Below are positions 15,311 to 53,200 of a DNA stretch of 64,000 nt, piece after piece. The DNA comes from Anadara kagoshimensis (Eukaryota; Mollusca; Bivalvia; Arcoida; Arcidae): positions 73,424,128 through 73,488,127 of the forward strand of contig CM037865.1 of the NCBI GenBank assembly GCA_021292105.1, in the 5' to 3' direction. Made by a program: the position numbers and the translations under genes. The notes below the pieces were generated by a model. It saw only the letters and a list, made by a program, of their open reading frames with translations. It made no database searches and was not told the DNA's origin. How positions within the stretch are numbered: the first letter of the stretch is position 1; each line of letters begins with the position of its first letter.

Positions 15311-15339
15311 CAAACTGCTTACAAATAAAGGCTTATCAA

Positions 15340-16006: not shown

Positions 16007-19000
16007 CAAAATGAAGCATGTCTTTTCTTGCATAATAAAAACTAAAGGTGTAAAGACAAAGCTGAAAGTATCAATTATATGTGACAAAGGATAACTGTTA
16101 TGGAACAAAATTAGATTTATGTATACAGAAATAGTAAAAGATAAAACATTTAGACTAATGTTTAAAAAAAACTATATCAATTGACAAAACTTCTGTCATA
16201 ATAACCACATGTATTCACATTGTAGTCGTACAACAAAAACTTTTGATTAAAAATATTTCATTTGAAACATTTCTTTTTAAATTTTCTTATATTAAGCATT
16301 TTAATCAAAGAAAAGAACCCATAAAATGTTACAAGACCCTTTTACACTTTAATAAATTTTTGTCATTCTTTAAAATGTAAAGTTCACCTTGATTATCAAG
16401 CGTTATCCCTTTTCTACTGTAATCGTATCAAAAATGAACAATGATTCCCTAAATAAAGCTTGGAGACTTTAAATGATATTTAGACCATACAGTCCAACCT
16501 GTGTTAAAGGCCACCTCTATATAAGGGCCACTGTCTATAAAGGGCACTTTCAATTCCTCCCAAGCCATTTTACTCTTTATTTAACCTCTATATAAGGGCC
16601 ACTGTTCAACTGAGCCAGAGGCCACCCTATTTTTGTACAAAATGGCTCATGAACCTGTCTATAAAGGCCACTTTTTATTTCTATTTTAGGAACAAGTTTT
16701 GTTATAGTTTCTAAAAATGTGTGCAAAAATGTTAAGCCATGTAGTTTTTTAAAAATCTTGAAGCTAAAATTAGATTTTAAACATTGATTATTAAAATTAG
16801 ATTTTAAACATTGATTATTTAACTTTAAACCATTGATTATTAAACTAAGTGCATGTAACCAAATCTGTATGTTGATAAGAAAAGAATTTTTAAAAAGTAT
16901 ATTATTGAAATTTTTTAAAACTTAAAAAAATTCTTAAGTTATTTATCCTCATGTCAACAAATGAAGCCATAAAGCACTAAGGATAGATTATTACTCATTA
17001 TTAATTATGATACATATACTATTTTCTATTGTTTTCATTACTGGCTCCTACCTATTAAAGAAAACATGTCTTTATTTAAGATATGTATATACTTGGTGTT
17101 TTTAAGGTTTTTTTTTCAAAGATTGATAAATAGTGTGGTCAGAAGATTTTTTTAATTGTTTTCAAAGAAATTATTCTGTTAAAATTAGCTTATGCCTTTT
17201 TTGTAACAGAAATTTTAACAAATAAAATAAATAAATTAGAACTGCTCACTATTTTTTCAACTAATATTTATATTGATGTCATAACTGGATTTACAGACCT
17301 TTATATAAAGGCCACCTGTCCATAGAGGCCACTTTTGCAACTTCCCCTGAGTGGCCCTTATAGACAGGTTAGACTGTATTTGGATTTCAACAGTTTTGGT
17401 CCAAGCACTATTGATGAGGAATTTTATTCCGAAACGGTCGTCTAGTGCTACAAAATTGAAACAGGTTTAGTTAAAATATTACATGCTGCTTCCCGGGAAG
17501 TGTCATAAAATATTTTCAGTTATTTTAAGTTTAGTTTATAATTTACACGTTGATTCCTGTGAAGAGCGGCATAAATATTTATTTTTACAATAAGTTGGGC
17601 TAATGTGGTATTTTGTGCCAAATTGATTGATGTTATTTAATGCAGTAAAATAAACGAGTCTATCAAGATATATCTGCATAGAAATGTAGAAAAATTTCGA
17701 AAAACACTGGTTGTATATTTCTGATCTTACCAAGCCAGAATTCGTTGGAAATATTTCCGAAACCTACAACATACGAATTCCAATCCCGAAAGAAATTGGT
17801 AGAGCCATCCGTTCTTCTTTGAAAAACCTGGAACAAAACAATTGAAAAAATAAACAATTGACCAAACGTAAATTGTCAATATAAAATGCTAAACGGGACC
17901 AAAGATAGCAATATAAATATTGATCACTTGTGACATTGCCATAAACATGGTTTTTATGTCTGTATTACAATATTGGTTTAATTGTGACATTTCCATGAAC
18001 ATGTTTTCAGTATCCCATTTTATTCTGACGTATTCTTGGTTGCTTCTGATGTATTCTTGGTTGGTTGGGACGTATTTTTGGTTGGTTGGGACGTATTCTT
18101 GGTTGGTTGAGACGTATTCTTGGTTGGTTGGGACGTATTCTTGGTTGGTTGGGACGTATTCTTGGTTGGTTGGGACGAATTTTGGGTGGTTGGGATGTAT
18201 TCTTGGTTGGTTGGGACGTATTCTTGGTTGATTGGGACGTATTCTTGGTTGATTGGGACGTATTCTTGGTTGGTTGGGACGTATTCTTGGTTGATTGGGA
18301 CGTATTCTTGGTTGATTGGGACGTATTCTTGGTTGGTTGGGACGTATTCTTGGTTGGTTGGGACGTATTCTTGGTTGGTTGGGACGTATTCTTAGTTGGT
18401 TGGGACGTATTCTTGGTTGGTTGGGACGTATTCTTGGTTGGTTGGGACGTATTCTTGGTTGATTGGGACGTATTCTTGGTTGATTGGGACGTATTCTTGG
18501 TTGCTTCTGACGTATTCTTGGTTGGTTGGGACGTATTCTTGGTTGGTTGGGACGTATTCTTGGTTGATTGGGACATGTTTGTGTATGATTGTGACGTGTT
18601 CAGGTTGATAACGACGTGTTCCTTGTTCATTGTGACGTGTTTAGGCTGATTGTGATGTCGTATTCATGTTGATTATGACGTATTCAGGTTGATTACTGCA
18701 AGTTCTTTGCTAATTGTGACGTGTTTATGTTGATTGTGACGTGCTCTTAATTTATTTTGACATGTTCTTGGTTGATTACGACGTGTTCTTTGTTAATTGT
18801 GACGTGTTCAGGTTGATTTTTGGTTGATTGTGACGTGTTCTTGGACGAATGTGACTATGTGGCTATTGAAAGTACTAGAAAGTCAGTTCGTAATTGTTTT
18901 TTAAAATCTGTCTAAATAAAAAGTTATATTATTGTATTTTTAGATTTGTACATTGTTAGGATATAATACCATTTTGTCACTGGAACATATTCTTGTGCAC

Positions 19001-21470
19001 AGGTAATATTTTATCAGTTTTACGGTTTGCATGACAAAACCTTGTTTAGCTTTATAATTATCCCATTTTATAGTTGTATATGATTGCAAGGTTTATTATT
19101 CATTCTTATGAAAAATGCTGGGTTATTATCGGACCTGTTAACCTTTATCATACGACGTTGTTCAGAAAACGTTAAAGACCGGTAAACTACACGTGTATTA
19201 TATTTGTTGTTGACCGTCATCACAGTATTATTGATAGGTATGCTGTATGTCTATCCAGGATTGCCCTTGATATATTTGACGTCCCATAGTTCCATGTTCC
19301 TTTCACTCGATTGTGATCACACACGTGGTGGGTGTAGCTAGCTAAACAAGAGGTGCTAACTCTTACCGTGGTATCAGGTCTCACTTGCCTGGTAGAAGTG
19401 CACGTGTTTAAGACAATATGTCAGTTTCAAAGTTTTAACTTTGTTTCTGGATTTTAATTTGAGAATGGATTATTATGTTTGTTTTTATTTCATTGTGATA
19501 TCACTTAATCTGCAGTAACAGGAAGCATGAAGTCACTTGTGGTTAAGGAACTTTTGATATATTGATGACTTCATTATGACCGACTTGATAAACCTTTCAA
19601 ATCAAACAAGAGAACACAAAGTTTTTATTATCGATACTTTTGCGACACATTTACCTAAACCATGTTGTCATCACAGTATTGCTGATAACTTTGATGTCTC
19701 TTATGTCAATGATTGCCCTGGATATATTTGACGTCATATAGTTCAATGTTCCTTTGACAGAATTTAGTTACACACGTTGCGGGTGTAGCTAGCTAAACGG
19801 GAAGTACCTACCCTTCTGGAGCACCCGGTCTCTCTTCCTTGGTGAAAGTTATGTGTCTAACCTAACTTGTCAGTTCCAAAGTTTTATACTTTGCTTCTGG
19901 ATTGTGATTCGGACATGGATTAGTATGTTTGTTTTTGATGTTGATTGTGATATTGTGACCATGTGCAGAAACATACCTAAACGTGCACTATAACTGTATA
20001 CTAGCACAATGCAGATCAGTATCACGTGCATAGTCACATGTAAATCATTCACTTTGTTCCTTTCACACAATTTTCATTACACACGTGGCAGGTGTAGCTA
20101 GCTAAGCAGGAGGTACTTACCCTTCCGGAGCACCCGGCCTCACTTTCCTGGTGAAAGTTCACGTGTCTAACGTACTTGTCAGTTCCAATGGTTTTACTTT
20201 GCTTCTGGATTCGGACATGGATTTGTATGTTTGTTTTTGATTAGGTTTAACTCTCGAGCTCAATAAAACCTTTAATCTACGCGACTTTAAACAGCATGCA
20301 GTATTATTTATTAAGAATAAAGTTGTCTACCGTCCATCCATGTCGTTTCATATCACAATACACTTCATACTGGCTACCATTTCTGTATATTGTATACACT
20401 CCGTCGGTCGTTTTTCCTGACTTGAAAATTTCTTCACAGTCTATAGGTTTGCTTTCTAGAACAAAAATCATATTGAATACTGACTGTGTAATGAGCATGA
20501 ATAACAGGAAATATTTACTTTGCTAACCGAGTACGACACAATATAAATTAATAAAAGAAGCAACTAATCAACTGCAAGACCAGTAAACATTTCGACCACT
20601 GATAATAAAGTTCTCGAACCTTATTGTAACAAACAGTTAACCAACAACCCCTCCGTATGCATGTACACGTTATCGAGAAAAAATCACAAATATAATTGAT
20701 TTTTATATTTTTAAGTTTTTTATGTTAACTATATAAGTATATTATGCATGGTAAAATTGCCGCAGCCTGTACTGAACATTTTTATTCACGGTACTGGATA
20801 CATCAAAATCATTAAATGATGTTTTTAAAAGCTGAGAGCTTTATAATTAGCGGACCGTTTATTATTTTAAGACAAGCATTCATTGTAATCCCTAGTTATG
20901 GCGGAAAATTACTTTTCTTAAATTCGTGAATTACATAAACTTACAATTTCATTCATGGAGTACCTTCATAAGATGTCTGAGAATTACCCTGTATGATTTA
21001 CATGAAGTTAAAAATGCATTGCTAGTTTCATATTGAAATATTGAGGAGGTTCTAAAATGAATTTATTATATGCAACTTACTATCAAATAAAATGTTTTGG
21101 TTGTTCATATATTTTAGTTAGCCATTATACCATATTTGATGAGTGTACAAATATATATCTTACCCGTTTTATTCATGGAGTAATATTTCCACCCCGTCTG
21201 TGATAGTCCTGCTGTAGCATCTGTAAATGTAGCCGAGTGTAGCTGACATATGTCACAATCATACTGACAGAAAAATGACACACACAGATTAACTTCTCTA
21301 CATAATTGTGAACAACTGTCTAATGATGTTCGACATCCAGAGACTTTCTGTATTCTGAACGTGTTGATGATCTTGTCACGGAACGAAACGTTTTCTATAA
21401 ATGTTACATTTGAACTGAAAACACTACCACTAAATAGAAAAATTATTGTTAAATGTAAAAACATTTTCAT
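15823..21470 (-). CDS. fibrinogen-related (FReD) secreted protein, four 5' exons, 3' end missing
   Basis: Minus-strand exons are 21,470-21,164, 20,475-20,334, 17,838-17,734 and 16,006-15,823; internal ends are good to a few bases, and donors and acceptors are GT/AG with matching phases (1, 0, 1). Exon 1 encodes a signal peptide ([19 protein letters not shown]) and a Cys-rich stretch of about 80 residues spaced like a PAN/apple domain. Exon 2 opens the fibrinogen C-terminal fold (DCEEIFKSG ... YEVYCDM). Exon 3 carries [14 protein letters not shown] and NEFWLG. Exon 4 carries [17 protein letters not shown] and Y(N)GDAG. Molluscan FReDs are secreted lectin-like recognition proteins. The last third of the fold, with the calcium site and terminal Cys pair, is not found between 14,951 and 15,822, so its exon is either left of the window or lost. 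A start at Met3 is possible because that ATG has the better context. Confidence 0.9.
16203..16290 (+). repeat. block A fragment in FReD intron 3
   Basis: The stretch from CATGTATTCACATTGTAGTC through ACAACAAAAA and AAAATATTTC matches the reverse complement of about 32,505-32,585. It continues the homology that starts at 14,941 and stops near 15,310. Confidence 0.65.
16490..17376. mobile_element. CAGT...AACC TIR element (MITE or Tc1/mariner/pogo-like), 887 bp
   Basis: The left end CAGTCCAACCTGT and right end ACAGGTTAGACTG are inverted repeats. Both ends carry internal AAGGGCCAC-type motifs, and TA dinucleotides flank both sides (16,488-16,489 and 17,377-17,378). There is no transposase frame inside, so it is non-autonomous. 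TA duplication and CAGT termini are known from the Tc1/mariner/pogo superfamily. It lies in FReD intron 3, between two stretches of block A that lie close together in the 32-kb copy. Confidence 0.75.
17378..17510 (+). repeat. block A fragment carrying a hammerhead-like motif
   Basis: It matches the reverse complement of about 32,235-32,395 over TTTTGGTCCAAGCACTATTG, GAGGAATTTTATTC, GTCTAGTGCTACAAAATTG and a GCTGCTTCCCGGGAA-like end. It forms the far end of the colinear A/B homology. Confidence 0.75.
17404..17449 (+). ncRNA. hammerhead ribozyme-like motif 1 (core substitution)
   Basis: In order: AGCACTA (stem I), TTGATGA (box 1, normally CTGANGA), GGAAT-TTT-ATTCC (perfect 5-bp stem II), GAAA (box 2), a short stem III around CGGTCG, the cleavage triplet GTC, and TAGTGCT (7 bp back to stem I). 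The C-to-T change at the first core base should disable cleavage. Hammerheads of this minimal form are known in metazoan retroelements. Confidence 0.65.
17734..17838 (-). CDS. FReD gene exon 3
   Basis: Acceptor GTTTTGTTCCAG, donor GTAAGA. It encodes [16 protein letters not shown] followed by [17 protein letters not shown], matching the FReD consensus in which a QRR-DGS-F-R-W-Y--GFG stretch precedes EFWLG. It enters in phase 0 and leaves in phase 1. Confidence 0.92.
18024..18860. repeat. 21-bp minisatellite with decayed right flank
   Basis: About 26 units of GGGACGTATTCTTGGTTGGT plus one base run from 18,024 to about 18,575. Increasingly divergent units with TGTGACGTGTTC continue to about 18,860. 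The unit is a multiple of three and stop-free, which gives long frames on both strands (repeats of NTSQPTK or ILGWLGR); these are not genes. It lies in FReD intron 2. Confidence 0.95.
19240..19475 (+). repeat. family-A dispersed repeat, copy 2
   Basis: It carries GTCCCATAGTTCCATGTTCC, ACACACGTGGTGGGTGTAGC, TAGCTAAACAAGAGG and the AACTTTGTTTCTGGATT tail. It lies in FReD intron 2. Confidence 0.8.
19690..19945 (+). repeat. family-A dispersed repeat, copy 3
   Basis: It carries GATTGCCCTGGATATATTTG, CACACGTTGCGGGTGTAGCT, a CCCTTCTGGAGCACCCGG core and the CTTTGCTTCTGGATTGTGAT tail. Confidence 0.8.
20055..20245 (+). repeat. family-A dispersed repeat, copy 4
   Basis: It carries CACACGTGGCAGGTGTAGCT, CCCTTCCGGAGCACCCGGCC and the TTTGCTTCTGGATTCGGACA tail. 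It ends about 90 bp from FReD exon 2. Confidence 0.8.
20334..20475 (-). CDS. FReD gene exon 2 (start of fibrinogen fold)
   Basis: Acceptor TTTTTGTTCTAG, donor GTAGAC after GGATGGACG. It encodes [20 protein letters not shown], then [15 protein letters not shown] and ends HGWT. The Cys of DCEEIF and the VYCDM Cys are the usual first disulfide pair of the domain. The boundaries agree with exon 1 (phase 1) and exon 3 (phase 0). Confidence 0.9.
21164..21470 (-). CDS. FReD gene exon 1 (signal peptide and PAN/apple-like region)
   Basis: It begins with ATGAAAATG at 21,470 and ends at a GTAAGA donor after AATAAAACGG. After the hydrophobic leader comes a region with eight Cys ([28 protein letters not shown]), which resembles PAN/apple domains found ahead of fibrinogen domains in molluscs. 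The PAN assignment rests on Cys spacing only. Confidence 0.85.
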
Positions 21471-22064
21471 ATGATTACTTTTGCAACACCTTCATCAAAA
21501 CGAACAATTTTCAAGAAATACATAAATATATTTCCTCTGCGTTTAATTCGACAACCTGATATTAAATCGAGAGTCTAACCTTTTAAAAAAATTATGTTTA
21601 TTTCATTCAATATATATTTTGACAAATATATTATAATTATATAGATATATGAAGTGGGGAAATAAGTCAGGTTTAGATACGCCCCTAGTAACCGGCTAGT
21701 GAAATAGATTATATAAATTTCTATCTGAAAAAAACATGTCCTAAGCAACAGCCACGCAATCAAGAACACGACACTATACAAGTTGATACTGGCAAATTCA
21801 ATATTTTCAGATAACACAAAGAAAAAACGAGCGCATATATTTTGGGCTACAACCACTGATTATGAATACTACTAATCACCCCTGCTCTGTCCAGAGGAAA
21901 TAAGTTATGTGCAGTAGTGTGATTAAAGTACTACTGTGGGCCACAACTATTCCACCTATTTCACAACCAATGTTTCTTAACTATCACAAAAAAATCCTTA
22001 ATTTACCAAACGATCAACCAATAGCCTTTGCACGTATTCAAAGGTATAGTGTGTAATCAAAAAC

Positions 22065-22460
22065 AAACACACCATTTCATGTCCAAATCACAATCCTAAA
22101 GCAAAGTAAAAACTTAGAAACTCGCAGATTAGGGAAAAAACGCGTAAAAATCAACCAAGGAAGTGAGACTGTGTGCTCCGGAAGGGCAAGTATCTGTTAA
22201 GCTAGCTAAAACCGCTATCCGTGTAACCAAACTTCAGAGTGACAGGAATTTCAATTTTATAATTATATTTTTAGGAATTTGTGAAATATACCGGAGAGAA
22301 GTAAAAGCTTTAGAAGCTAGTTTTCTAATAAGCATTTGAATAAGTCAAATCAATTAATTGCGGTGACTTTATAGTTCCTCGATAGAAGTTTCAAAGGAAA
22401 ATTCACAATGTGAGATCTATGGTGATGCCTTTTAAATTCATCATTTATAACTGATAGTTG
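22065..22460 (-). repeat. family-A copy 5 plus left spacer of the 31-bp array element
   Basis: An inverted family-A copy (GTGCTCCGGAAGGGCAAG, GTTAAGCTAGCTAAAACC) is followed by about 250 bp of spacer that runs into the 31-bp array. The whole stretch matches the reverse complement of about 28,900-29,310, including TAGTTTTCTAATAAGCATTT and TTTGTGAAATATACC. Confidence 0.75.
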
Positions 22461-22461
22461 A

Positions 22462-25400
22462 TGTTATCCAGATCAACAAAGGGTATTGTATCTGTTATCC
22501 AGATCAACAAAGGGTATTGTATCTGTTATCCAGATCAACAAAGGGTATTGTATCTGTTATCCAGATCAACAAAGGGTATTGTATCTGTTATCCAGATCAA
22601 CAAAGGGTATTGTATCTGTTATCCAGATCAACAAAGGGTATTGTATCTGTTATCCAGATCAACAAAGGGTATTGTATCTGTTATCCAGATCAACAAAGGG
22701 TATTGTATCTGTTATCCAGATCAACAAAGGGTATTGTATCTGTTATCCAGATCAACAAAGGGTATTGTATCTGTTATCCAGATCAACAAAGGGTATTGTA
22801 TCTGTTATCCAGATCAACAAAGGGTATTGTATCTGTTATCCAGATCAACAAAGGGTATTGTATCTGTTATCCAGATCAACAAAGGGTATTGTATCTGTTA
22901 TCCAGATCAACAAAGGGTATTGTATCTGTTATCCAGATCAACAAAGGGTATTGTATCTGTTATCCAGATCAACAAAGGGTATTGTATCTGTTATCCAGAT
23001 CAACAAAGGGTATTGTATCTGTTATCCAGATCAACAAAGGGTATTGTATCTGTTATCCAGATCAACAAAGGGTATTGTATCTGTTATCCAGATCAACAAA
23101 GGGTATTGTATCTGTTATCCAGATCAACAAAGGGTATTGTATCTGTTATCCAGATCAACAAAGGGTATTGTATCTGTTATCCAGATCAACAAAGGGTATT
23201 GTATCTGTTATCCAGATCAACAAAGGGTATTGTATCTGTTATCCAGATCAACAAAGGGTATTGTATCTGTTATCCAGATCAACAAAGGGTATTGTATCTG
23301 TTATCCAGATCAACAAAGGGTATTGTATCTGTTATCCAGATCAACAAAGGGTATTGTATCTGTTATCCAGATCAACAAAGGGTATTGTATCTGTTATCCA
23401 GATCAACAAAGGGTATTGTATCTGTTATCCAGATCAACAAAGGGTATTGTATCTGTTATCCAGATCAACAAAGGGTATTGTATCTGTTATCCAGATCAAC
23501 AAAGGGTATTGTATCTGTTATCCAGATCAACAAAGGGTATTGTATCTGTTATCCAGATCAACAAAGGGTATTGTATCTGTTATCCAGATCAACAAAGGGT
23601 ATTGTATCTGTTATCCAGATCAACAAAGGGTATTGTATCTGTTATCCAGATCAACAAAGGGTATTGTATCTGTTATCCAGATCAACAAAGGGTATTGTAT
23701 CTGTTATCCAGATCAACAAAGGGTATTGTATCTGTTATCCAGATCAACAAAGGGTATTGTATCTGTTATCCAGATCAACAAAGGGTATTGTATCTGTTAT
23801 CCAGATCAACAAAGGGTATTGTATCTGTTATCCAGATCAACAAAGGGTATTGTATCTGTTATCCAGATCAACAAAGGGTATTGTATCTGTTATCCAGATC
23901 AACAAAGGGTATTGTATCTGTTATCCAGATCAACAAAGGGTATTGTATCTGTTATCCAGATCAACAAAGGGTATTGTATCTGTTATCCAGATCAACAAAG
24001 GGTATTGTATCTGTTATCCAGATCAACAAAGGGTATTGTATCTGTTATCCAGATCAACAAAGGGTATTGTATCTGTTATCCAGATCAACAAAGGGTATTG
24101 TATCTGTTATCCAGATCAACAAAGGGTATTGTATCTGTTATCCAGATCAACAAAGGGTATTGTATCTGTTATCCAGATCAACAAAGGGTATTGTATCTGT
24201 TATCCAGATCAACAAAGGGTATTGTATCTGTTATCCAGATCAACAAAGGGTATTGTATCTGTTATCCAGATCAACAAAGGGTATTGTATCTGTTATCCAG
24301 ATCAACAAAGGGTATTGTATCTGTTATCCAGATCAACAAAGGGTATTGTATCTGTTATCCAGATCAACAAAGGGTATTGTATCTGTTATCCAGATCAACA
24401 AAGGGTATTGTATCTGTTATCCAGATCAACAAAGGGTATTGTATCTGTTATCCAGATCAACAAAGGGTATTGTATCTGTTATCCAGATCAACAAAGGGTA
24501 TTGTATCTGTTATCCAGATCAACAAAGGGTATTGTATCTGTTATCCAGATCAACAAAGGGTATTGTATCTGTTATCCAGATCAACAAAGGGTATTGTATC
24601 TGTTATCCAGATCAACAAAGGGTATTGTATCTGTTATCCAGATCAACAAAGGGTATTGTATCTGTTATCCAGATCAACAAAGGGTATTGTATCTGTTATC
24701 CAGATCAACAAAGGGTATTGTATCTGTTATCCAGATCAACAAAGGGTATTGTATCTGTTATCCAGATCAACAAAGGGTATTGTATCTGTTATCCAGATCA
24801 ACAAAGGGTATTGTATCTGTTATCCAGATCAACAAAGGGTATTGTATCTGTTATCCAGATCAACAAAGGGTATTGTATCTGTTATCCAGATCAACAAAGG
24901 GTATTGTATCTGTTATCCAGATCAACAAAGGGTATTGTATCTGTTATCCAGATCAACAAAGGGTATTGTATCTGTTATCCAGATCAACAAAGGGTATTGT
25001 ATCTGTTATCCAGATCAACAAAGGGTATTGTATCTGTTATCCAGATCAACAAAGGGTATTGTATCTGTTATCCAGATCAACAAAGGGTATTGTATCTGTT
25101 ATCCAGATCAACAAAGGGTATTGTATCTGTTATCCAGATCAACAAAGGGTATTGTATCTGTTATCCAGATCAACAAAGGGTATTGTATCTGTTATCCAGA
25201 TCAACAAAGGGTATTGTATCTGTTATCCAGATCAACAAAGGGTATTGTATCTGTTATCCAGATCAACAAAGGGTATTGTATCTGTTATCCAGATCAACAA
25301 AGGGTATTGTATCTGTTATCCAGATCAACAAAGGGTATTGTATCTGTTATCCAGATCAACAAAGGGTATTGTATCTGTTATCCAGATCAACAAAGGGTAT

Positions 25401-26118
25401 TGTATCTGTTATCCAGATCAACAAAGGGTATTGTATCTGTTATCCAGATCAACAAAGGGTATTGTATCTGTTATCCAGATCAACAAAGGGTATTGTATCT
25501 GTTATCCAGATCAACAAAGGGTATTGTATCTGTTATCCAGATCAACAAAGGGTATTGTATCTGTTATCCAGATCAACAAAGGGTATTGTATCTGTTATCC
25601 AGATCAACAAAGGGTATTGTATCTGTTATCCAGATCAACAAAGGGTATTGTATCTGTTATCCAGATCAACAAAGGGTATTGTATCTGTTATCCAGATCAA
25701 CAAAGGGTATTGTATCTGTTATCCAGATCAACAAAGGGTATTGTATCTGTTATCCAGATCAACAAAGGGTATTGTATCTGTTATCCAGATCAACAAAGGG
25801 TATTGTATCTGTTATCCAGATCAACAAAGGGTATTGTATCTGTTATCCAGATCAACAAAGGGTATTGTATCTGTTATCCAGATCAACAAAGGGTATTGTA
25901 TCTGTTATCCAGATCAACAAAGGGTATTGTATCTGTTATCCAGATCAACAAAGGGTATTGTATCTGTTATCCAGATCAACAAAGGGTATTGTATCTGTTA
26001 TCCAGATCAACAAAGGGTATTGTATCTGTTATCCAGATCAACAAAGGGTATTGTATCTGTTATCCAGATCAACAAAGGGTATTGTATCTGTTATCCAGAT
26101 CAACAAAGGGTATTGTAT
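22462..26118. repeat. 31-bp minisatellite, about 118 near-identical copies
   Basis: The unit is TGTTATCCAGATCAACAAAG followed by GGTATTGTATC. I saw no substitution inside the array; the last unit runs out into ATATATATTGTATAC. Because 31 is one more than a multiple of three and the 93-bp triple has no plus-strand stop, all three plus frames stay open for over 1,230 codons. These frames are not genes: they encode the same 31-residue repeat shifted, with no upstream exon. Confidence 0.98.
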
Positions 26119-28390: not shown

Positions 28391-28394
28391 TATC

Positions 28395-28575: not shown

Positions 28576-28604
28576 TTGTAAAAAAAATCCAAATAAAAGT
28601 ACAT

Positions 28605-29310
28605 CTATCAAAAACAAACATACTAATCCATGTCCGAATCACAATCCAGAAGCAAAGTAAAAACTTTGGAACTGACAAGTTAAGTTAGACACGTGAACTT
28701 CCACCAGGGAAGTGAGGCCGGGTGCTCTGGATCGGGGTAAAAACCTCCTGTTTAGCTAGCTACACCCGCCACGTGTGTAATCAAAATTGTGTGAAAGGAA
28801 CATGGAACTATGAGACGTCAAATATATCCAGGGCAATCCTGGACACAGAGATATTTTCTAAAGATTCATTATTAGCAAAAAGCAAACAAGTCTTTTTTAT
28901 CTGGATCATACAATGATAACTTAAATAAGGATGACTAAAGATTTCTCAATGTATATTTTCATTTGGAAGATGGCTCCTATCGAGGATCAATCTATACAAC
29001 CATCGCCATAAATAAGTTGAGCTTATTCAAATGCTCATTAGAAAACTAACTTCGTAAATCAGGTATATTTCACAAAATTCTAAAACAAAAATTATAATTA
29101 TAACATTAAAATTCCTGTACTCTTAATTTTATTACACGGGTAGCGGTTGCAGCTAGCTAAACAGATACTTTCTATTCTCGAGCACCGGCCTCACTGCCCT
29201 GGTTGATGTTCACGCGTTTTGTTTAATCTGATAGTTGCAACGTTTTTACTTTGCTTTGAAATTGAGTTTTGGACTTAAATTGGTATGTTTGTTTTTGATT
29301 AAACACTATA
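28605..29310. mobile_element. element with two inverted family-A arms
   Basis: A family-A copy in minus orientation (28,605-28,860) and one in plus orientation (29,115-29,310) flank a spacer of about 250 bp. At 28,885-28,915, in the position where the 31-bp array lies in the homologous 22-26 kb segment, there is one related unit (reverse complement TGATCCAGATAAAAAAG). The arms would act as long terminal inverted repeats of about 200 bp. There is no coding capacity. Confidence 0.65.
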
Positions 29311-29446: not shown

Positions 29447-32251
29447 TTATGTAATAAATGCCAAGTAATGTAATAACACCTTGTTATGTAATAATTATCT
29501 CCGTGTAATGTAATAACGCCTTGTTATGTAATAAAGAACGATGTGTAATGTAATAACACCTTGTTATGCAATAAAGAACGATGTGTAATGTAATAACACC
29601 TTGTTATGTAATAAAGAACGATGTGTAATGTAATAACGCCTTGTTATGTAATAAAGAACGATGTGTAATGTAATAACACCTTGTTTTGTAATAAAGAACG
29701 ATGTGTAATGTAATAACACCTTGTTATGTAATAAAGAACGATGTGTAATGTAATAACGCCTTGTTATGTAATAAAGAACGATGTGTAATGTAATAACACC
29801 TTGTTATGTAATAAAGAACGATGTGTAAGGTAATAACACCTTGTTATGTAATAAAGAACGATGTGTAATGTAATAACGCCTTGTTATGTAATAAAGAACG
29901 ATGTGTAATGTAATAACACCTTGTTATGTAATAAAGAACGATGTGTAATGTCATAACACCTTGTTATGTAATAAAGAACGATGTGTAATGTAATAACACC
30001 TTGTTATGTAATAAAGAGCGATGTGTAATGTAATAACACCTTGTTATGTAATAAAGAACGATGTGTATTGTAATAACGCCTTGTTATGTAATAAAGAACG
30101 ATGTGTAATGTAATAACACCTTGTTATGTAATAAAGAACGATGTGTAGTGTAATAAAAGAAGGTTTCTTGTTATGTAATAAAGAACGATGTGTAATGTAA
30201 TAACACCTTGTTATGTAATAAAGAACGATGTGTAATGTAATAGCACCTTGTTATGTAATAAAGAACGATGTGTAGTGTAATAAAAGAAGGTTTCTCGATA
30301 TGTAATAAAGAACGATGTGTAATGTAATAACACCTTGTTATGTAATAAAGAACGATGTGTAATGTTATAACACCTTGTTATGTAATAAAGAACGATGTGT
30401 AATGTAATAACGCCTTGTTTTGTAATAAAGAACGATGTGTAATGTAATAACGCCTTGTTATGTAATAAAGAACGATGTGTAAGGTAATAACACCTTGTTA
30501 TGTAATAAAGAACGATGTGTAATGTAATAACACCTTGTTTTGTAATAAAGAACGATGTGTAATGTAATAACGCCTTGTTATGTAATAAAGAACGATGTGT
30601 AATGTAATAACACCTTGTTATGTAATAAAGAACGATGTGTAATGTAATAACGCCTTGTTATGTAATAAAGAACGATGTGTAATGTAATAACACCTTGTTA
30701 TGTAATAAAGAATGATGTGTAAGGTAATAACACCTTGTTATGTAATAAAGAACGATGTGTAATGTAATAACACCTTGTTTTGTATAAAGAACGATGTGTA
30801 ATGTAATAAACCTTGTTTTGTAATAAAGAACGATGTGTAATGTAATAACACCTTGTTATGTAATAAAGAACGATGTGTAATGTAATAACACCTTGTTATG
30901 TAATAAAGAACGATGTGTAATGTAATAACACCTTGTTATGTAATAAAGAACGATGTGTAATGTAATAACACCTTGTTATGTAATAAAGAACGATGTGTAA
31001 TGTAATAACACCTTGTTATGTAATAAAGAACGATGTGTAATGTAATAACACCTTGTTATGTAATAAAGAACGATGTGTAATGTAATAACACCTTGTTATG
31101 TAATAAAGAACGATGTGTAATGTAATAACACCTTGTTATGTAATAAAGAACGATGTGTAATGTAATAACACCTTGTTATGTAATGAAGAACGATGTGTAA
31201 TGTAATAACGCCTTGTTATGTAATAAAGAACGATGTGTAATGTAATAACACCTTGTTATGTAATAAAGAACGATGTGTAGTGTAATAAAAGAAGGTTTCT
31301 TGTTATGTAATAAAGAACGATGTGTAATGTAATAACACCTTGTTATGTAATAAAGAACGATGTGTAATGTAATAACACCTTGTTATGTAATAAAGAACGA
31401 TGTGTAGTGTAATAAAAGAAGGTTTCTCGATATGTAATAAAGAACGATGTGTAATGTAATAACACCTTGTTATGTAATAAAGAACGATGTGTAATGTAAT
31501 AACACCTTGTTTTGTAATAAAGAACGATGTGTAATGTAATAACGCCTTGTTATGTAATAAAGAACGATGTGTAAGGTAATAACACCTTGTTATGTAATAA
31601 AGAACGATGTGTAATGTAATAACACCTTGTTTTGTAATAAAGAACGATGTGTAATGTAATAACGCCTTGTTATGTAATAAAGAACGATGTGTAATGTAAT
31701 AACACCTTGTTATGTAATAAAGAACGATGTGTAATGTAATAACGCCTTGTTATGTAATAAAGAACGATGTGTAATGTAATAACACCTTGTTATGTAATAA
31801 AGAACGATGTGTAAGGTAATAACACCTTGTTATGTAATAAAGAACGATGTGTAATGTAATAACACCTTGTTATGTAATAAAGAACGATGTGTAATGTAAT
31901 AACGCCTTGTTATGTAATAAAGAACGATGTGTAATGTAATAACACCTTGTTATGTAATAAAGAACGATGTGTAATGTAATAACACCTTGTTATGTAATAA
32001 AGAACGATGTGTAATGTAATAACACCTTGTTATGTAATAAAGAACGATGTGTAATGTAATAACACCTTGTTATGTAATAAAGAACGATGTGTAATGTAAT
32101 AACGCCTTGTTATGTAATAAAGAACGATGTGTAATGTAATAACACCTTGTTATGTAATAAAGAACGATGTGTAATGTAATAACACCTTGTTACGTAATAA
32201 AGAACGATGTGTAGTGTAATAAAAGAAGGTTTCTCGATATGTAATAAAATT
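29447..32251. repeat. 40-bp minisatellite, about 70 units, with higher-order structure
   Basis: The unit is AATAAAGAACGATGTGTAAT followed by GTAATAACACCTTGTTATGT. It is a dimer of two 20-bp halves sharing ATGTAATAA. Most variation is at fixed sites (CACC or CGCC, TTATG or TTTTG). A distinct insert (GTAGTGTAATAAAAGAAGG) recurs at 30,145, 30,272, 31,277, 31,404 and 32,211. The first pair and second pair are exactly 1,132 bp apart, so a block of that size was duplicated. Confidence 0.97.
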
Positions 32252-32313
32252 TATATCATTTCTCGGAAAGCAGTATATAGTTAAAATTTGTACTAAACCA
32301 GTTTCAATTTTGT

Positions 32314-32359
32314 AGCACTAGACGGCCGTTTCTGAATAAAATTCCTCATCAATAGTGCT
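32314..32359 (-). ncRNA. hammerhead ribozyme-like motif 2 (core substitution)
   Basis: Minus strand: AGCACTA, TTGATGA, GGAAT-TTT-ATTCA, GAAA, CGGCCG, then TC ending the GTC triplet, then TAGTGCT. Stem I is a perfect 7 bp. Stem II has lost its terminal pair. Box 1 has the same C-to-T change as motif 1, so both probably derive from one defective ancestor. The 40-bp array starts 62 bp beyond its 3' end. Confidence 0.6.
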
Positions 32360-32420
32360 TGGACCAAAATTATGAAAATTCAAATATCGTTAAGGATGCA
32401 TTCTTCTAAAAACAATTTAA

Positions 32421-32499
32421 ATACGCGTTGTAACAACGCCTAATGAAGTCCGGACTTCATTAGGCGTCGGACTTCATTAGGAGTTGTTACAACGCGTAT
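32421..32499. repeat. 79-bp palindrome
   Basis: The left arm ATACGCGTTGTAACAACGCC is followed by TAATGAAGTCCGGACTTCAT, and the right arm is the reverse complement (ending GTTGTTACAACGCGTAT), with an extra TAGGCGTCGG-type duplication in the centre. It can form a hairpin or cruciform. It is absent from block A. Confidence 0.8.
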
Positions 32500-32975
32500 A
32501 TGAACATTTAAACAGCAACGTTTTAACCGAAATATTTTAATCAAATTTTTGTTGTGCGACTACAGACTACAATGTGAATAAATGTGGTTGTGGTTGCATA
32601 AAGTTACCGTAGCGGGAACAAGCTCTAAAGTCGCGTATTAGTTTGAAAAAGCACCAGAAACAAAAGAAGCAGGCATATTGCTGCATAGAAAAGGAAAGTT
32701 GACAATAGAAAAATTTAAGGCACCACGTTTGTCATACATCTTCAAAGCAGAACTTTTTGAAGAATCAGTCGTATCTTAAATATCATGCTCACTAGGGTAG
32801 ATGACATCCACACAATCCGCTGCAAATATAGTATTATTAATCGATAGAACGCCAGTTATATATCTGTGTGTGGAGTGTGTGTAATTATTAAGATTTCTAA
32901 CTTTCTAACTCTTAGGAAATCTTAGTTTATAATGATTGTAAAACCGGGGCCAGATCATTAACACATCATGACTAT

Positions 32976-35681: not shown

Positions 35682-38550
35682 GTTATTATTAATGTTATAC
35701 GGTTATGAATTCATGTACACATAAGTTTTGGGGTGTAATGTGGCCTATGGGGCACGCCCACGCACACTACCCAACAATTTATAATTGGGCACAGGTGTCT
35801 GAATGCAGCATTACCATTTCACATTTTCAGGCGATGCAGTAAGGAATCTGTCCTTATCTGTCCTTACTTAGATCTACCGGTAGGAAAAGATTGACTATTG
35901 TATGCACTCATAACGGTTATAAAACTTTTAAAGTGAAAATAAAAAAAATGTATATACAGTCACAGTCCATGTATCATTCATGTACATGAAGGGAACCGGT
36001 TATTTCAAATTTAAAAGAAAAAAAAAAGTAAAAGTTATTTAAAGTTGTTATGGGAGTTGTTAAATTGAGCGGGATTTAAATTTAGAATTAATTCAGAACT
36101 GGTAAAACAACCATGTAATATATAACGATCGATTAACTGATGAAGATCTACTTAATGATAGAAAAATTATAAATTTGTCATGGTAATCATTTTTGAAAAA
36201 TGTTGTAAATTATTAAATTTTGATTGATGTCAAGTTTTTTGTCCTTCGCGGCAGGTGATTTTTGCTGAACAAGAAAATAGCAATTAGTGGGTAAAAGATT
36301 ATTCTAGTAAATAGGGGTACAGGCTTTTTTGCTGTGAAAGTGGTACATTTTATAAATGCCATCTTCTACCTTTTATTTACCTTCAAAAACGCCGTTAGCT
36401 AGGCGTGATAATTCACATTCTAAGATCAACAGCGACAAATTTGATGGTTCATAAAATTACCAGCCACTTTTCATATCTATGAACTATTTTGTTTGACAAT
36501 CTTAGTTGTATCCTCGACCGTCCGTGATTCGAGACTCTAATAGAGAACGAACTAAATTTGCTAACGCAACAAGAATTTGAGAGCTGAAAAATAGACAACT
36601 GATTTTTCTGGATAGTTTTACATGAATACCTAAATTTTGTCTTTAATGCAGGAAATCGCCACTGCAGGGACGATACTCGCGTATAATAACTGAAAACAAA
36701 AATGGCCTCGAATCTTACGACGCTCTCGATTTTAGGACGGTCGACGATATAATATTCATCAATTTAAAAAGCATACATGTAATTGCTACTGAACAGTATA
36801 GAGTAACCCCTCGGTAATTTTTCTTACTAATAATGGTTTTGGATCTTTGGTAGTCTTAGATAAGAGATAACACGCCTGGCACCCTGTCTCATTTCTGAGG
36901 GAATTCGGTGTGAGATTTGCCACTTGTGGTAAAGCCCAGAGAATGGGAAGAATAAAGCGGCGATCTGGGTAGTTCAGGTGGTGGTAAACCACTTGCATAT
37001 ATAATTCGGGAGGTCTCATGTTCGATCACTGTATGGTTTGACCGTACCTTTTCTCCTTCCTGTTACAGTAATGCCATTATATCCTATATATTATCATAGG
37101 ATTATTATAAGATATTCAGTAAATAAGATTATAAAATTTAGTTCTTGAAGAGCATAGGGGCAGAATGACATTATATTGACAAAGAAGAATTGTCTAATTC
37201 CTAGTATTTATTTTAGGTGAGGGGATCCTTTGAAGAACAGAATGGAGCTGTGACCAAGTTTGAGTTAGTGTCCTACAAATCGCAGGTTGTAGCAGGGACC
37301 AACTACTTTGCAAAGGTATGAAAAATTGTGCAAAAAATTGAAGTGAGGACTAGAATAATATAGGCATATAACAATACATCGGTTTTACTTTATGTGTGAA
37401 TTAAAATGTGACATATATTATACTGTATTATATGTCACTGGTTATCTATATCAACAGTAATGTCAGCAGTTTCGGCACGACGCAAGTCAACCCAAAAACA
37501 ATGAAATTAACACTGTCTTCCATGTTATAATATTGAATGCAAGTTCACTGATCACGAGTCAACTCTACATCACTAAAACCAACACAATACATCTAAAATG
37601 CACCAATGAGATTCAAGTGGAAGCTTCTACACAGATATAGTACAGACTGTCGAAAGATTAACACTTAAGCCTAACAAATTACAGAAATCGGCAGCTCATT
37701 GTCCTCTCGTTATCTATATCGCGACAGCTTTTTGACATTAGCTTCCTAGAGGTAGCCGAGCTTTGATTCCGTTTTGTTAGCTCAGTTTGAAGTAGCTTGT
37801 CAGGCTTGTACTGTAGTTGCCTTTGTTTACACATACCAAACAGTCACTATATAGTGATAAGAAAGTCAACTAGGATTTGACTTTAAATCAGCGTTATTTT
37901 GCTTATATTGAGAAACCACTAAAATTGAAACGAGCAAGTGTTTTATTTATTTATTTTACAATACCAACTATGACATTAAGGCATTATTTATTGTATTTTT
38001 GATAAGTTTGATGTCTCTGTGTCCAGGATTGCGTTAGATATATTTGACGTCCCATATTATACAATAATATAATATAATAATAATTCCATGTTCCTTTCAC
38101 ACAATTTTGATTATACATGTGGCGGGTATAGCTAGCTAAAAAGGAGGTGCTACCCTTGCGGAGCACCCGACCTCACTTCCCTGGTGGAAGTCCACCTGTT
38201 AGGCCTAATTTGTCAGTTTCAAAATTTTTACTTTTCTTCTGGATTATGATTCGGACATGGATTAGTATGTTTGATTGGGTTTTTTATATTTTTTATTGGA
38301 TACTAAAGTTTATGTTTCAGAATTCTAAATCATGTAGTCTGGTTGTGTATTGAAAAATACTTAAATATACCTTTATATTGATGAGTTACTGTATAATTTG
38401 TTTTTATTATTAAAACAGGTTGATATTGGTGATGGAAAGTTTGTTCACCTTCGGATATTGAAAGCACTGCCCCATACAGGTGCTGGACCAGAGTTGGTTA
38501 AGTTTCTCCTGGATAGGTCTGCTGATGATGCTGTCGAGTATTTTGATTAG
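35616..38550 (+). CDS. CSTB: cystatin-B / stefin, complete, three exons
   Basis: Exons are 35,616-35,681, 37,217-37,315 and 38,419-38,550, all joined in phase 0 by GT/AG introns of 1,535 and 1,103 bp; the product is 98 aa, the usual stefin length. There is no signal peptide, as in family-1 cystatins, which are cytosolic reversible inhibitors of papain-like cathepsins. Visible inhibitory parts are the N-terminal MMCGG with the flexible Gly, the QVVAG loop in exon 2 and the LPHTG second hairpin loop in exon 3; the chain ends EYFD. The intron positions match those of vertebrate CSTB as I know them. The ATG has A at -3, and Met1 and Met2 are adjacent, so either could be used. In molluscs stefins are often linked to immunity, but nothing here shows that directly. 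Confidence 0.95.
36508..36749. mobile_element. possible MITE in stefin intron 1
   Basis: TATCCTCGACCGTCC at the left and GGACGGTCGACGATAT at the right are near-perfect inverted ends about 240 bp apart. A second weaker inverted match (ATTCGAGACTC, CTCTCGAT) lies inside. No target duplication was confirmed. Confidence 0.45.
36940..37065 (+). repeat. tRNA-like SINE fragment in stefin intron 1
   Basis: GGGTAGTTCAGGTGGTGG resembles an A box and TGTTCGATCAC resembles a B box, 40-50 bp apart. It lies just before stefin exon 2. It could be chance similarity. Confidence 0.4.
37217..37315 (+). CDS. CSTB: stefin exon 2 (QVVAG inhibitory loop)
   Basis: Acceptor TATTTATTTTAG, donor GTATGA. It encodes VRGSFEEQNGAVTKFELVSY then KSQVVAGTNYFAK. 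QVVAG is the QxVxG signature of cystatins. Confidence 0.95.
37995..38275 (+). repeat. family-A dispersed repeat, copy 10, in stefin intron 2
   Basis: It carries GTCTCTGTGTCCAGGATTGC, ATGTGGCGGGTATAGCTAGC and CACTTCCCTGGTGGAAGTCC. A short ATAATAATA expansion interrupts it at about 38,060-38,080. Confidence 0.8.
38419..38550 (+). CDS. CSTB: stefin exon 3 and stop
   Basis: Acceptor TTATTAAAACAG. It encodes VDIGDGKFVHLRILKALPHT, then GAGPELVKFLLDRSADDAVE and YFD, with TAG at 38,548. LPHTG is the second hairpin loop that contacts the protease. Confidence 0.95.
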   Translation, partial: VDIGDGKFVHLRILKALPHTGAGPELVKFLLDRSADDAVEYFD

Positions 38551-38788: not shown

Positions 38789-38799
38789 TTTATGGTTGT

Positions 38800-44455: not shown

Positions 44456-44469
44456 TATCGATTGGCGAG

Positions 44470-45790: not shown

Positions 45791-45794
45791 ATAA

Positions 45795-46559: not shown

Positions 46560-47330
46560 TTTCGGACAGCAATGCCAGAAAATTTAAAATATTGGTGAGC
46601 ATCAACTAAGGAATTTTCAAAATGCATACAATTCAATTTGGTTCGGTTGTTCTAGATAATAAGACATGCATTACACAGAATTATCATACTCTGTCAAAAC
46701 TATGTCAATACTACCGTTTGAATATTCCACTAATGATCCAATAAAGATTTGGGGGATAAAAATACATTACATACCTTCCACGTCAATTTTGATTGAAATT
46801 TGTCCAGTAGCTTCAAAGTAGAAGATTTTCAAAGAACCTGTTAAATACTGAACCTTTCATATTTGAATTTTCTGACCTGTATCTGTCATATACCACTTCT
46901 TGTAATTTATAGTCACTGCAGCCATCTTGAATGCCACAGAAAGTTACTCTGTGCAAACTTTAATCTGTGTCATCTAGGAACTTGCCCCACCAAATTTGGT
47001 TCAAATAGGTCTAGTCAGTTTCAAGAGAAGAATTTTAAAAAATCAGTTAAATATAGCACCTTAGGTGATTATGCTGCTAGTAAGGATCCAATGAATAAAT
47101 TTGGGGGGAAAAAACAAGTTAAATGGTTATATATCTACATTCTATATACCAAATCAATTGATAAATAAACCTGTATCAGCCATTTTCCACTATTTGCTAT
47201 TTGAAAGCAGTCATCCTGGCTGCCTCAGGATGTTGACTAGAGCAAACTTTCAACTATTCTGTGTAGGTTTTACCTGTTTCATTTAAGGATAAAACCAGCT
47301 CCGTAACTTCTGGAGTAGATTTAGTTTATG
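46560..47330. repeat. diverged dispersed repeat units with CCACCAAATTTGG
   Basis: At least two related units about 207 bp apart share TTTGGTTCAAAT/TTTGATTGAAAT, GTCTAGTCAG/GTCCAGTAGC and AGAAGA-TTTT. The motif around CCCCACCAAATTTGGTTCAA is widespread in molluscan intergenic DNA. Confidence 0.45.
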
Positions 47331-48914: not shown

Positions 48915-49120
48915 CTATAGTCCGTCAGCGATACTATAGCAGTGTATATAAACATGGGTAGGTCCGTCATACACAAATAAATATGAATACTGTGTTATCA
49001 TATGCATAAATTCACGCCTTCGTACATTTTTCAAAATCACATTTTTATTCCCCTTTTTATATTATATAGACTTTTCTATGTTTATAAATACTCTGCCAAA
49101 ATATCGCTGACGGACTATAG
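48915..49120. mobile_element. 206-bp MITE
   Basis: The termini CTATAGTCCGTCAGCGATA and TATCGCTGACGGACTATAG are 19-bp perfect inverted repeats. The inside is AT-rich, non-coding and unlike the flanks. Confidence 0.75.
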
Positions 49121-52097
49121 TTACAGTTTTCAAGTGTAAAAATTTCATATAAAAATACATTTCAACAAAAAGTACAAATATTGTATCAAATTATTTAGGT
49201 TGTGGCTAATCCTTCTTGATAAATAGGCATGTTATCACTGTCACACTTCAGTGGTAGACACACACTAGAAATAAACAAATTATTGACAAATATTTACAAA
49301 ATAAAGAAAAAAACAACAACAAAAATAATGTAATTAAAAATCACACAGGTCTTTTTGCTTCAATGAGTTGGATACTTGTTACAAACCAAACTGTTTAACT
49401 AATGACTTATACCTTTCCTGTGTGTTTGACAATGAAAGTATAATATAAATGTAAAAATAAACAAAACATAAACATAATTCAAGACGATATGCATAATAAA
49501 ACCTATGACAATATTCCATGTCCATATTATACACAATTAAACACAGAATAAGTTTTAAATATTCCCATAAAATAATAAATGTTCAAAAGCCATGAGAAGT
49601 TCCTCAGTTTCTTACTATTACTGGATATATATATACAATGTATAAATTATATGTGTGTGTATATATTGAGAAATTATCCATATAATGACTCCCAAAAACA
49701 ACACAACAAATGAGACAGTGTATTAAGCACAATTGTTAAACATAACAGTATATTACATACAAGGATATAAAATTAATATTGACACACATACAATAATATG
49801 ACTAACGTATATCTGTAAACCAAATCACTATATATACCGGTACACATTGTACAACAAAACACCTCTCAAGTAACTAAGATACATGTATAGTACATTTGTA
49901 CTTCCAGAAACATGTTTTACAGTGCTCAAAGTGACTTTTACTCTAGGAACCAATGTGGCTCCTTATCAAAAATTTTCAGGTGCCAATCAAAAATTTTAGT
50001 TGCACTAAAACAATGAAAAATGAAACTATAACGAAAATTTTTTATAAAAAAAACTGTATTAAAAATATGTTGTTTGTTGTTTTTATTGCAAACTAGTAGT
50101 TTGTGTCTAAATATTTTTCTGGCCATCCTTCATTTTTTAATTCATATTTCTGTCTTAAACAGCTAAAATTGGATTTTGAGGACAGCAATTTTGACAGGTC
50201 TCTTTACAATAAGTCCAAATTAAAGTTTATTGTCATACACCAAAACCAATCTAAAGAAGCTAAGATACATGTATGATATTTTATCTACACATGTTATATA
50301 GTGTACAACAAATGTTCATAAGGTTCATCAATATTTAGAAGTTCTATTTACAAGTCAAAATGAAAGTCCATGGTCAGTCTATATACAGACCTGGCCAGGC
50401 TATAACATGTTAAAACATTTACTTCACCATAATGAACATGGACAAAGAATTATACATGAAGGCCTTATAGAAGTTATAGTGTATTTAATACAGACCTTAC
50501 ACTGGTAAAGATACAATGAAACTTTAGGTCTGAAACAGCGACCGAAAACAGTGTACACAAAATATGAAAACAAGCAACACAAATAACAATACTCAGTGAG
50601 TGCATGGGTCACTTTAAATTTACATGAATTAACACATTTGAAATACCCATACAGTTAAGCTCCAATATGCATTTATAACTGATGTTCTTCTATGTTTCAA
50701 ATCTTAAAGCCCTTCTGAATGTAATAATTATAAAGTATGTGTTACTGAAGAAAATGATGTTTAATGTGCAAAAGCACTGACTCAAAAAGAGCGATTAACA
50801 AAAACAAGATATTTCTATATGAACCATCATTACTAGAGGTCACAAGACTTGAAATATACATGTAGTCTGAAAATGACAATATCTTTAATTTTAGGAGCAA
50901 AAAGGTATTTTGTGAATTGGAAATCATAAGGATGTCATAATTGAATACAGAAAGGATGGTTCTTGAATTATATATCATCTATGCCTGAAGTATGAAATGA
51001 ACTGTACTGTTTATTTTCTTCTGTGAAATGTTCTGTGACGTAACCATGACATTTATGACAACGATTCTATACTCTGAGTGCCATGAACATATTTATTTTC
51101 TGCAAAAGTTGGTGGTAATATACTGTATAATTATATTGATGGGAAGAAACATTTGGTTTTACAGATATTAGCATTTTCTCAATGACTTCCATACTTTCAC
51201 CATTCTATCTTTTCATGAATATTCATGTAGTGTCATGAGGAATTCTGACTATGTAATTTGAGGGTTCAGTTGTTCAAAACTTGCATTAGTTTACCACAAA
51301 TTAAAAACCTTGATAAAGATCAATGTAGTATTATCTGACCAATTGCCATTTTGAGGAAATTTTATTTATTTACTCATTAATGATTGTTTTGTCTTGTTTT
51401 TGTTTTTGTTTTTTCCTCCACAAAAAACTGAAAGATTCCAAACACAAAAATTGAAATTCCTCTAAAAAAATTGTTTTCCAATAAATAAATCGAAAAAAAG
51501 TTCTAAAGTCTACAAGAAACAGATCTTGACTAATCAATTTATAAAGCTAATCAAGTTTTGGACAACTGCTTCCTGGATTATTTCTAGTTATGCATGCATT
51601 TGGTATCACAAGGGGAATTAATGCATAATACTAATACATAGGTAAACTGATTCAAGTACACACTTTACATTTGTCCACAGATAATAAAAATACAAGTTTC
51701 AATCTCAAACATCTGCTGAAACTTTACTTTTTTACAGAAGTGATATTTTTATGACTACCATTATATATATTTTTACTCCATTGTATTTTATGAAATGCAG
51801 TTATATCAAAACACTGATGTCTACATTTCTGTCATGTGAAGATGTTACTAAATATATACAATGTTCTGTACAGTATCCATAATTATATAATATAGAGCTG
51901 TATACAAATATATACAATTTAGCAGCATATATACAAACCACCATCATAGATCCAGGTCTATTGTGAAACACATAACATGTACCTAATTCTATGCATGTAT
52001 TTGCAGACAAAAATATAATAAATGCAAGCAAATGTGTATTTCATAAATATTGTAATAACACTGAGGTATATGATGTATCATAATAACAATACAATTA
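49121..52097. other. AT-rich interval, no recognised gene
   Basis: Open frames are short and without motifs. Simple AT tracts such as TATATATATACA at 49,620-49,680 are present. It could include untranslated sequence of a neighbour, but nothing shows this. Confidence 0.35.
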
Positions 52098-52244
52098 CAG
52101 TCAAACCTTCCTTAAAGGCCACCTGCTTTTAAACGTCAGTCAAATTTTACCCCAATCACTCTTTACTCAGACTATTTTTTAACCTGCATATAAGGGCCAC
52201 TTTTACAGGTTCCCTTGGTTGGCATTTATATACAGGTTTGACTG
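52098..52244. mobile_element. 147-bp CAGT...AACC MITE
   Basis: The left end CAGTCAAACCT and right end AGGTTTGACTG are perfect inverted repeats with TA on both outer sides. Inside are AAGGCCACCTG and AAGGGCCAC motifs shared with the 887-bp element at 16,490, so the two are one family. Confidence 0.8.
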
Positions 52245-52264
52245 TATTAAAAATGTATTTACAT

Positions 52265-52640
52265 AAGACATCCATGTTGTAAATGTGATATCATAAAGGT
52301 GAAACTGTAAAACATTTATATCACCATAAAATAGTTTTTACAGTATGACATTCATGTGGTTAATATGACATCAAAATAATAATACAGTATGACAATGATA
52401 CTGTAAATAGTACAGCATCATAATGGTGAAACAGTATGACATTCATGTGGTAAATGTGACATCAGAATAATGATACAGTATGACAATGATACTGTAAATA
52501 GTACAGCATCATAATGGTGAAACAGTATGACATCCATATGGTAAATGTGACATCACAATAAAACAGTTATTATTTACATATGACATCCATGTTGTAAATG
52601 TGACATTACAATAGTCATACAGTATGACATTGATACAGTA
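52265..52640. repeat. 91-bp tandem repeat, about 4 units
   Basis: ACAGTATGACATTCATGTGG starts at 52,340 and 52,431, and a close variant starts at 52,522, an exact 91-bp period. Units also share TAGTACAGCATCATAATGG. Partial units lie on both sides. Confidence 0.85.
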
Positions 52641-53024
52641 TGTATATGACATCATAATGACACATCTACTATTTACATGCATCATTCATGTTGTAAATAT
52701 GAAAACATTATTGTAAGTCTTTCTACATGAACTTTATTTTAGGAAATTAACATGTGTTGAGAGCTAAAAATTATTTGTGTTGATTTGACCTAAGTTTATT
52801 GTATTAAGATATTGAAGTAAACTTCATACCTTATATGCAACCAAATTTTGTTCACATGAATTAAACATAATTAACATGAATTTTACATGAAATTATTAAT
52901 GTGAAATTAACATGAATAGAGCTAACCGCTATAGAACAAAATTTGGCTGTGTATGCAACAGTCTGTATCTGTAAGACTTTTTTGTAAAACTGATTATAAA
53001 ATGAGTAAGTGTTACTTTAAATGT

Positions 53025-53110
53025 ATTTATCATTGTTGGAAGGACATCTATCATGTTCGGAGGGGCATCTATCAATGTGGGAGGAGTATTTATCACTGTG
53101 GGAGGGATAG
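53025..53110. repeat. 21-bp tandem repeat, 4 units
   Basis: Units of about 21 bp (GGAGGAGTATTTATCACTGT, GGAGGGGCATCTATCAATGT) run from 53,025 to 53,110. The array lies 38 bp beyond the 3' end of hammerhead-like motif 3. Confidence 0.8.
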
Positions 53111-53148
53111 GATTTACTTGATTGATAGCCATCCACCCTAAGTGAAAT

Positions 53149-53200
53149 ACCACTAGTATCGGACGCGCGTTTCGGAAAATGATTCCTCTTCAGTAGTGCT
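53149..53200 (-). ncRNA. hammerhead ribozyme-like motif 3 (all core boxes present)
   Basis: Minus strand: AGCACTA, CTGAAGA (matches CTGANGA), GGAATCATTTTCC (4-bp stem II), GAAA, CGCGCG, TC completing GTC, then six extra bases CGATAC, then TAGTGGT. The catalytic boxes are canonical. Stem I is interrupted by the six bases and has one mismatch, so activity is doubtful. Confidence 0.65.

Follow-up and report, generated by a model that had tools for sequence, protein, structure and literature searches.

The window analysed here, a 64,000-nucleotide stretch of Anadara kagoshimensis DNA, carries exons of a fibrinogen-domain gene in a region rich in tandem repeats. For the array statistics, 17 of the 24 TRF rows were kept and seven were dropped, each being the same array at another period or nested in a larger one; these 17 arrays, eight of which are at least 150 bp long, account for 25,325 of the 64,000 bases, about 40% of the window. 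The gene is represented on the minus strand by the following features:

15837-16001, minus strand (opposite to motif A, below): Fibrinogen_C exon (PF00147, E 8.9e-14)
17729-17827, minus strand: Fibrinogen_C exon, between motif A and its 3' array (PF00147, E 5.2e-13)
20328-20462, minus strand: Fibrinogen_C exon of the same gene, start of the domain (PF00147, E 6.9e-7)
21162-21470, minus strand: possible first exon with a signal-peptide-like start, judged by eye; its best Pfam match, PF12783 (E 0.052), is under the cut-off

The rest of the window yielded no significant second copy of the Fibrinogen_C exons. Matches to PF04834 (E 4.1e-4) and PF01235 (E 0.053) were under their cut-offs and were taken as composition effects.

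Three hammerhead-like motifs also lie in the window. The first, motif A, is intronic and antisense to the fibrinogen-domain gene, whose exons flank it on both sides:

17391-17458, plus strand: motif A, hammerhead-like, its parts in type I order, stem I extended and the core reading TTGATGA (U at position 3)
32372-32306, minus strand: motif B, hammerhead-like, a paralogue of A, with U3 as in A and in addition G.A at the base of stem II
53206-53139, minus strand: motif C, hammerhead-like, with canonical core bases, a 6-nt insertion after GTC and a broken stem I

All three show, in the same order, a stem I strand, a CUGAUGA-like box, a short stem II, GAAA, a stem III of 2-3 bp and GTC. A sequence-only reading of this DNA had placed hammerhead parts in order at 17,404 (+), 32,314 (-) and 53,149 (-); the order and the places are borne out, but every site proves to be defective. 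The invariant core of the hammerhead comprises C3 U4 G5 A6 N7 G8 A9, G12 A13 A14, U16.1 and H17. Tested against it, C passes and both A and B fail at U3: they read UUGAUGA in place of the family's CUGANGA, and C3 has thus been lost from both. At the base of stem II in B, an A faces a G, giving a mismatch. Counted from the cleavage site, stem I is a perfect 7 bp in A and B, whereas in C it is interrupted by six bases, CGATAC, inserted after GTC, ahead of the stem's 3' strand.

Are these motifs derived from hammerheads, or are they chance folds in some other repeat? A strict type I descriptor matches A and nothing else in the window, compared with a mean of 0.025 rows in 40 random windows generated by a first-order Markov model. 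When one mismatch is tolerated in stems I and II, the descriptor returns six rows at three places, namely A, B and 21498 (-), against a null mean of 0.375 rows. Motif C fails the structural descriptor, and is recognised through its core and its likeness to A. Covariance models are less favourable. No Rfam entry reached its gathering threshold anywhere in the 64-kb window, and in the covariance search that the sequence-only reading had proposed as a check, the result went against it: with the Rfam type I hammerhead model (RF00163) the scores are 13.4 bits for A, 15.3 for B and 25.6 for C, all below the gathering score of 34. The three sites are for this reason to be regarded as relics or variants and not as certified ribozymes. 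For C, the E value of 0.065 over 4227 families in 64 kb corresponds, by division, to about 1.5e-5 for one model specified beforehand; calculated likewise and scaled to 64 kb, the E values are about 0.16 for A and about 0.04 for B.

The hammerhead model is outscored by 2-4 bits at both A and B by the best snoRNA models, which themselves stay far below their cut-offs. Given these scores, it is the resemblance to C, together with stem I, that supports a hammerhead ancestry for A and B. A C/D-box snoRNA was considered at both places and rejected: the SNORD82-like matches reach 17.5 and 17.6 bits against a threshold of 43, and although a C-box-like TGATGA is present, a CUGA D box was not seen, by eye, where it would be expected. 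The other sub-threshold Rfam matches in the window are all far below gathering.

Predicted folds are similarly divided. For A, the minimum free energy (MFE) structure (-18, z -2.32) forms stems I and II, the former with its 7 bp intact, and also eight pairs of an outer helix; it further pairs GAUGA with UCGUC, leaving the hammerhead core unopened, which counts against the hammerhead reading. For B (z -1.22) stem II is absent from the MFE structure, and C folds no better than its shuffles (z 0.12). The unopened cores, like the sub-gathering scores and the snoRNA models that outscore the hammerhead at A and B, are what would be expected if the folds had arisen by chance with no hammerhead ancestry. 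We nevertheless regard that explanation as unlikely, because the core bases of C follow in order and its score is 25.6 bits, because A retains its stem I and outer helix, and because the strict descriptor so rarely finds a match in random sequence.

A direct comparison of C with A points to common ancestry. The two share a 47-bp similarity (79%, E 3.3e-6) that includes the 8-nt stem I strand, the letters of which are not dictated by the fold. The simplest reading is that all three motifs may descend from one ancestral family that has been eroded differently, the canonical core having been kept in C and the intact stem I in A; C would then be a more distant member of the family to which A and B belong. 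Hammerhead ancestry of the three sites is, on these sequence comparisons, likely.

Activity is a separate matter. By analogy with the hammerhead family, an intact motif would cleave its own transcript after GTC. The core defects suggest that the present copies are most likely non-cleaving or very slow, and we take none of the three to be working at the normal speed of a ribozyme. In a study of an Anolis Penelope-like hammerhead (PMC11167929), C3 and G8 are described as conserved core residues, either C3G or G8C abolishing cleavage and the double change C3G + G8C restoring it in part. The substitution at A and B is C3U, whereas the mutation in that account is C3G. The same source reports that the Anolis hammerhead did not cleave unless protein was added, and activity in the cell is accordingly not to be judged from sequence alone.

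The relationship between A and B is clear from alignment. Once the arrays are masked, four colinear blocks around A can be aligned with the reverse strand at B:

14930-15306 (A side) with 32966-32593 (B side), inverted: block 1
16203-16291 with 32589-32497, inverted: block 2
17377-17516 with 32386-32243, inverted: block 3, which contains motifs A and B
21938-22445 with 29433-28912, inverted: block 4
14930-17516 (plus strand, A side) and 32243-32966 (minus strand, B side), together with block 4 of each: extents of the duplication

The blocks were taken from 14 matches, of which ten were set aside, nine lying in a dispersed repeat and one, at 21559-21642, being short and out of order. A dispersed repeat about 200 bp long occurs at no fewer than ten places in both orientations, among them:

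15370-15579, 19279-19491, 19731-19939, 20055-20238, 22052-22248, 28607-28809, 29112-29296 and 38058-38276, both orientations represented: copies of the dispersed repeat of about 200 bp

Because an inverted duplication makes A and B paralogues, they do not count as independent cases. The two sides differ in what lies between blocks 3 and 4. On the A side this is 4.4 kb (17516-21938), in which two Fibrinogen_C exons lie together with the possible first exon; on the B side there is instead little beyond a 2.8-kb array of 40-bp units. B thus looks like an inverted duplicate from which the exon-bearing segment has been deleted, with an array in its place. The alignment shows the intronic motif, antisense to the fibrinogen-domain gene, to have been copied together with the gene region into the inverted duplicate, giving A and B. 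We consider it probable that A, B and C all go back to minimal type I hammerheads and have since decayed to relics, that A and B were copied in this way and that the arrays nearby are separate from them.

Two further structures adjoin the motifs. Directly 5' of motif A, and on the A side only, 16490-17375 is a possible short DNA transposon with inverted ends, judged by eye, near ACAGTCCAACCTGT and ACAGGTTAGACTGT; its inner arms were picked up in the same analysis as the foldback described next. At B, a foldback at 32416-32504 has 37-nt arms that are 92% complementary, and matched only itself in the self-comparison of the window. Rfam matches to mir-1677, MIR537 and tsr25 overlap this foldback, and one to MIR4387 lies inside the 40-bp array; being far below gathering, all were rejected.

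Why should the motif be the part of the duplication that has changed least? Over 17394-17458, the motif plus the extension of its stem I, A and B differ at 2 of 65 aligned sites, compared with 98 of 524 in the remaining homologous blocks (Fisher p 6.6e-4), and no segment of that length in the A/B alignment is better conserved, five overlapping segments being tied. The finding counts against plain decay, which predicts no such peak at the motif. It might mean that the motif has been exapted and is under selection, as an RNA structure or as a DNA signal, in the introns of a fibrinogen-domain family; conserved intronic hammerheads are known from amniotes, as PMC6155905 describes. Equal conservation of any segment that long is reached in only 2.6% of column shuffles (0.026), but in 10% of shuffles of 20-column blocks, and the comparison involves two copies only. 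The pattern is also unlike preservation of a fold, since, of the two changes, one disrupts a stem II pair. B, moreover, resembles a gene remnant in which no exon was found, the runner-up for conservation (15078-15143, four differences) contains no motif, and gene conversion would give the same outcome. Selection on an exapted motif therefore seems to us highly improbable; with two copies, gene conversion, chance or a constraint at the level of the sequence remain as possible accounts of the conservation. Still bolder, and to be given very little credence, is the specific proposal that a hammerhead derivative lacking C3 is maintained by selection as an RNA or DNA element that does not cleave, antisense in the introns of a duplicating, probably immune, fibrinogen-domain family. 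Decayed relics carried along by duplication remain our preferred reading.

The sequence-only reading had further proposed that each hammerhead is tied to a minisatellite on its 3' side. The arrays that bear on this are:

1-14950: 34-bp array of about 15 kb, 5' of A (TRF)
18027-18818: 21-bp array, 574 bp 3' of A, past the coding exon 17729-17827 (TRF)
29465-32222: 40-bp array of 2.8 kb adjoining B, in place of A's 17517-21937
53028-53106: weak 21-bp array of 3.8 copies with 76% matches, 3' of C (TRF)
52340-52561: 91-bp array of 2.4 copies, 588 bp 3' of C and the next of at least 150 bp (TRF)

The distances to the 3' array had been given as 574, 62 and 38 bp. The first agrees with our measurement, but the others are 92 bp at B and 43 bp at C, the distance at B falling to about 63 bp when the array is taken to include a degenerate initial copy, noticed by eye, near 32251. 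Three of the eight arrays of at least 150 bp have A, B or C within 600 bp, whereas five do not; one of these five lies 1348 bp from C, on its 5' side. At random free positions, an array lies no more than 574 bp away on the 3' side in 18-20% of cases, and one of at least 150 bp in 11%. When the three motifs are combined, Fisher tests of proximity over all arrays give p 0.006 for the 3' side and 0.029 for either side, and over arrays of at least 150 bp 0.011 for the 3' side and 0.046 for either side; with B left out the corresponding values are 0.021, 0.065, 0.067 and 0.19. Significance is thus weak for the three together and mostly lost without B. All these values flatter the link, because the tests were made after the finding had been chosen.

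The 21-bp array 3' of A sits in a different intron from the motif, beyond a coding exon, and in A there is no array in 17517-17728, the counterpart of the place where B's array starts. The reverse comparison is not clean: B has no counterpart of the segment that holds A's array, and is uninformative as to whether an array was ever present there. A family of mobile elements carrying hammerhead and tandem array as a single unit would account for the nominal proximity of the three sites (p 0.006 to 0.046, depending on array set and side) and for the start of B's array near the end of the A/B similarity. Such an element is, however, very unlikely in view of the array-free sequence at A, the intervening exon, unit lengths that differ from one motif to the next (21, 40 and 21 bp) and p values that rise to between 0.02 and 0.19 once B is dropped. 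With A and B dependent on one another, no array at A where B's begins and weak proximity, the fixed link between hammerheads and minisatellites finds no support, and as a candidate structural unit it was rejected. Among the paper titles listed in literature searches, none concerned such a link.

The closeness of motifs and arrays is best explained by a region rich in arrays. The duplication offers a view of how one of them formed: the 34-bp unit is single and unexpanded on the B side (32966-32945, aligned with 14930-14950; 21 of 22 bases match), which suggests that the 34-bp array grew in place in A. Of the two duplicates, one thus carries the expanded array and the other a lone surviving unit of it. 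For the other arrays, likewise, local expansion and rearrangement in a minisatellite-rich region is the probable origin, as the single unit indicates for the 34-bp case. There is a general caution here, in that proximity of a motif to a minisatellite means little where tandem repeats make up some 40% of the sequence. A 31-bp array at 22462-26118, which lies upstream of the fibrinogen-domain gene, has 118 copies with a reported match of 100%, and is either a very recent expansion or an effect of assembly.

How do the motifs compare with known hammerhead systems? According to PMC7761336, minimal type I motifs number in the thousands, are mostly dispersed in metazoan non-coding DNA, occur in some cases in Penelope-like elements and usually lack helix III. 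The type I order, the very short stem III and the non-coding location of A, B and C are shared with Penelope-like elements and Terminons, as described in PMC7761336 and PMC6155905. Unlike these elements, each locus here has a single motif, no pair of pseudo-LTRs was seen, and all three motifs are defective. A search for paired hammerheads in tandem pseudo-LTRs found none, each locus having one motif, and neither a reverse transcriptase nor a GIY-YIG domain was detected among 27 peptides (24 distinct stretches, covering part of the reading frames) scanned with Pfam.

Metazoan non-LTR retrozymes, which form small tandem repeats as in the mussel, share with this locus a type I hammerhead and an animal-like, A+T-rich genome, as PMC7229834 characterises them. 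In mussel, that text places the type I hammerheads usually inside repeats of about 350-390 bp, and more generally the ribozyme of such retrozymes usually lies within each repeat of 150-450 bp; the arrays near the motifs here have units of 21, 40, 21 and 91 bp, and no descriptor match fell within any array. Amniote intronic hammerheads, exemplified by RECK and CTCL (PMC6155905), resemble A in lying in an intron. They differ from the present case, in which the motif is antisense to the gene, the core is defective and two copies are seen. Two pattern scans of viral contigs gave no match in either, and a sigma-70 promoter scan gave one site against 1.0 expected.

The 40-bp array beside B has a possible parallel of a different kind. 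Filling the place of about 4.4 kb whose exons are missing from the duplicate, the array at 29465-32222 resembles the putative gene deletion sites of the sea urchin Sp185/333 immune clusters, for which PMC5103432 describes short tandem repeats at the edges of duplications and at putatively deleted gene sites. The genes and the types of repeat differ, however, and the comparison is an analogy only.

Elsewhere in the window, a RING finger is encoded at 56612-56830 on the minus strand (PF13920, E 7.7e-13), and UBA-like text was noticed by eye near 59.9 kb, where there is no Pfam match; together these are perhaps parts of an inhibitor-of-apoptosis gene.
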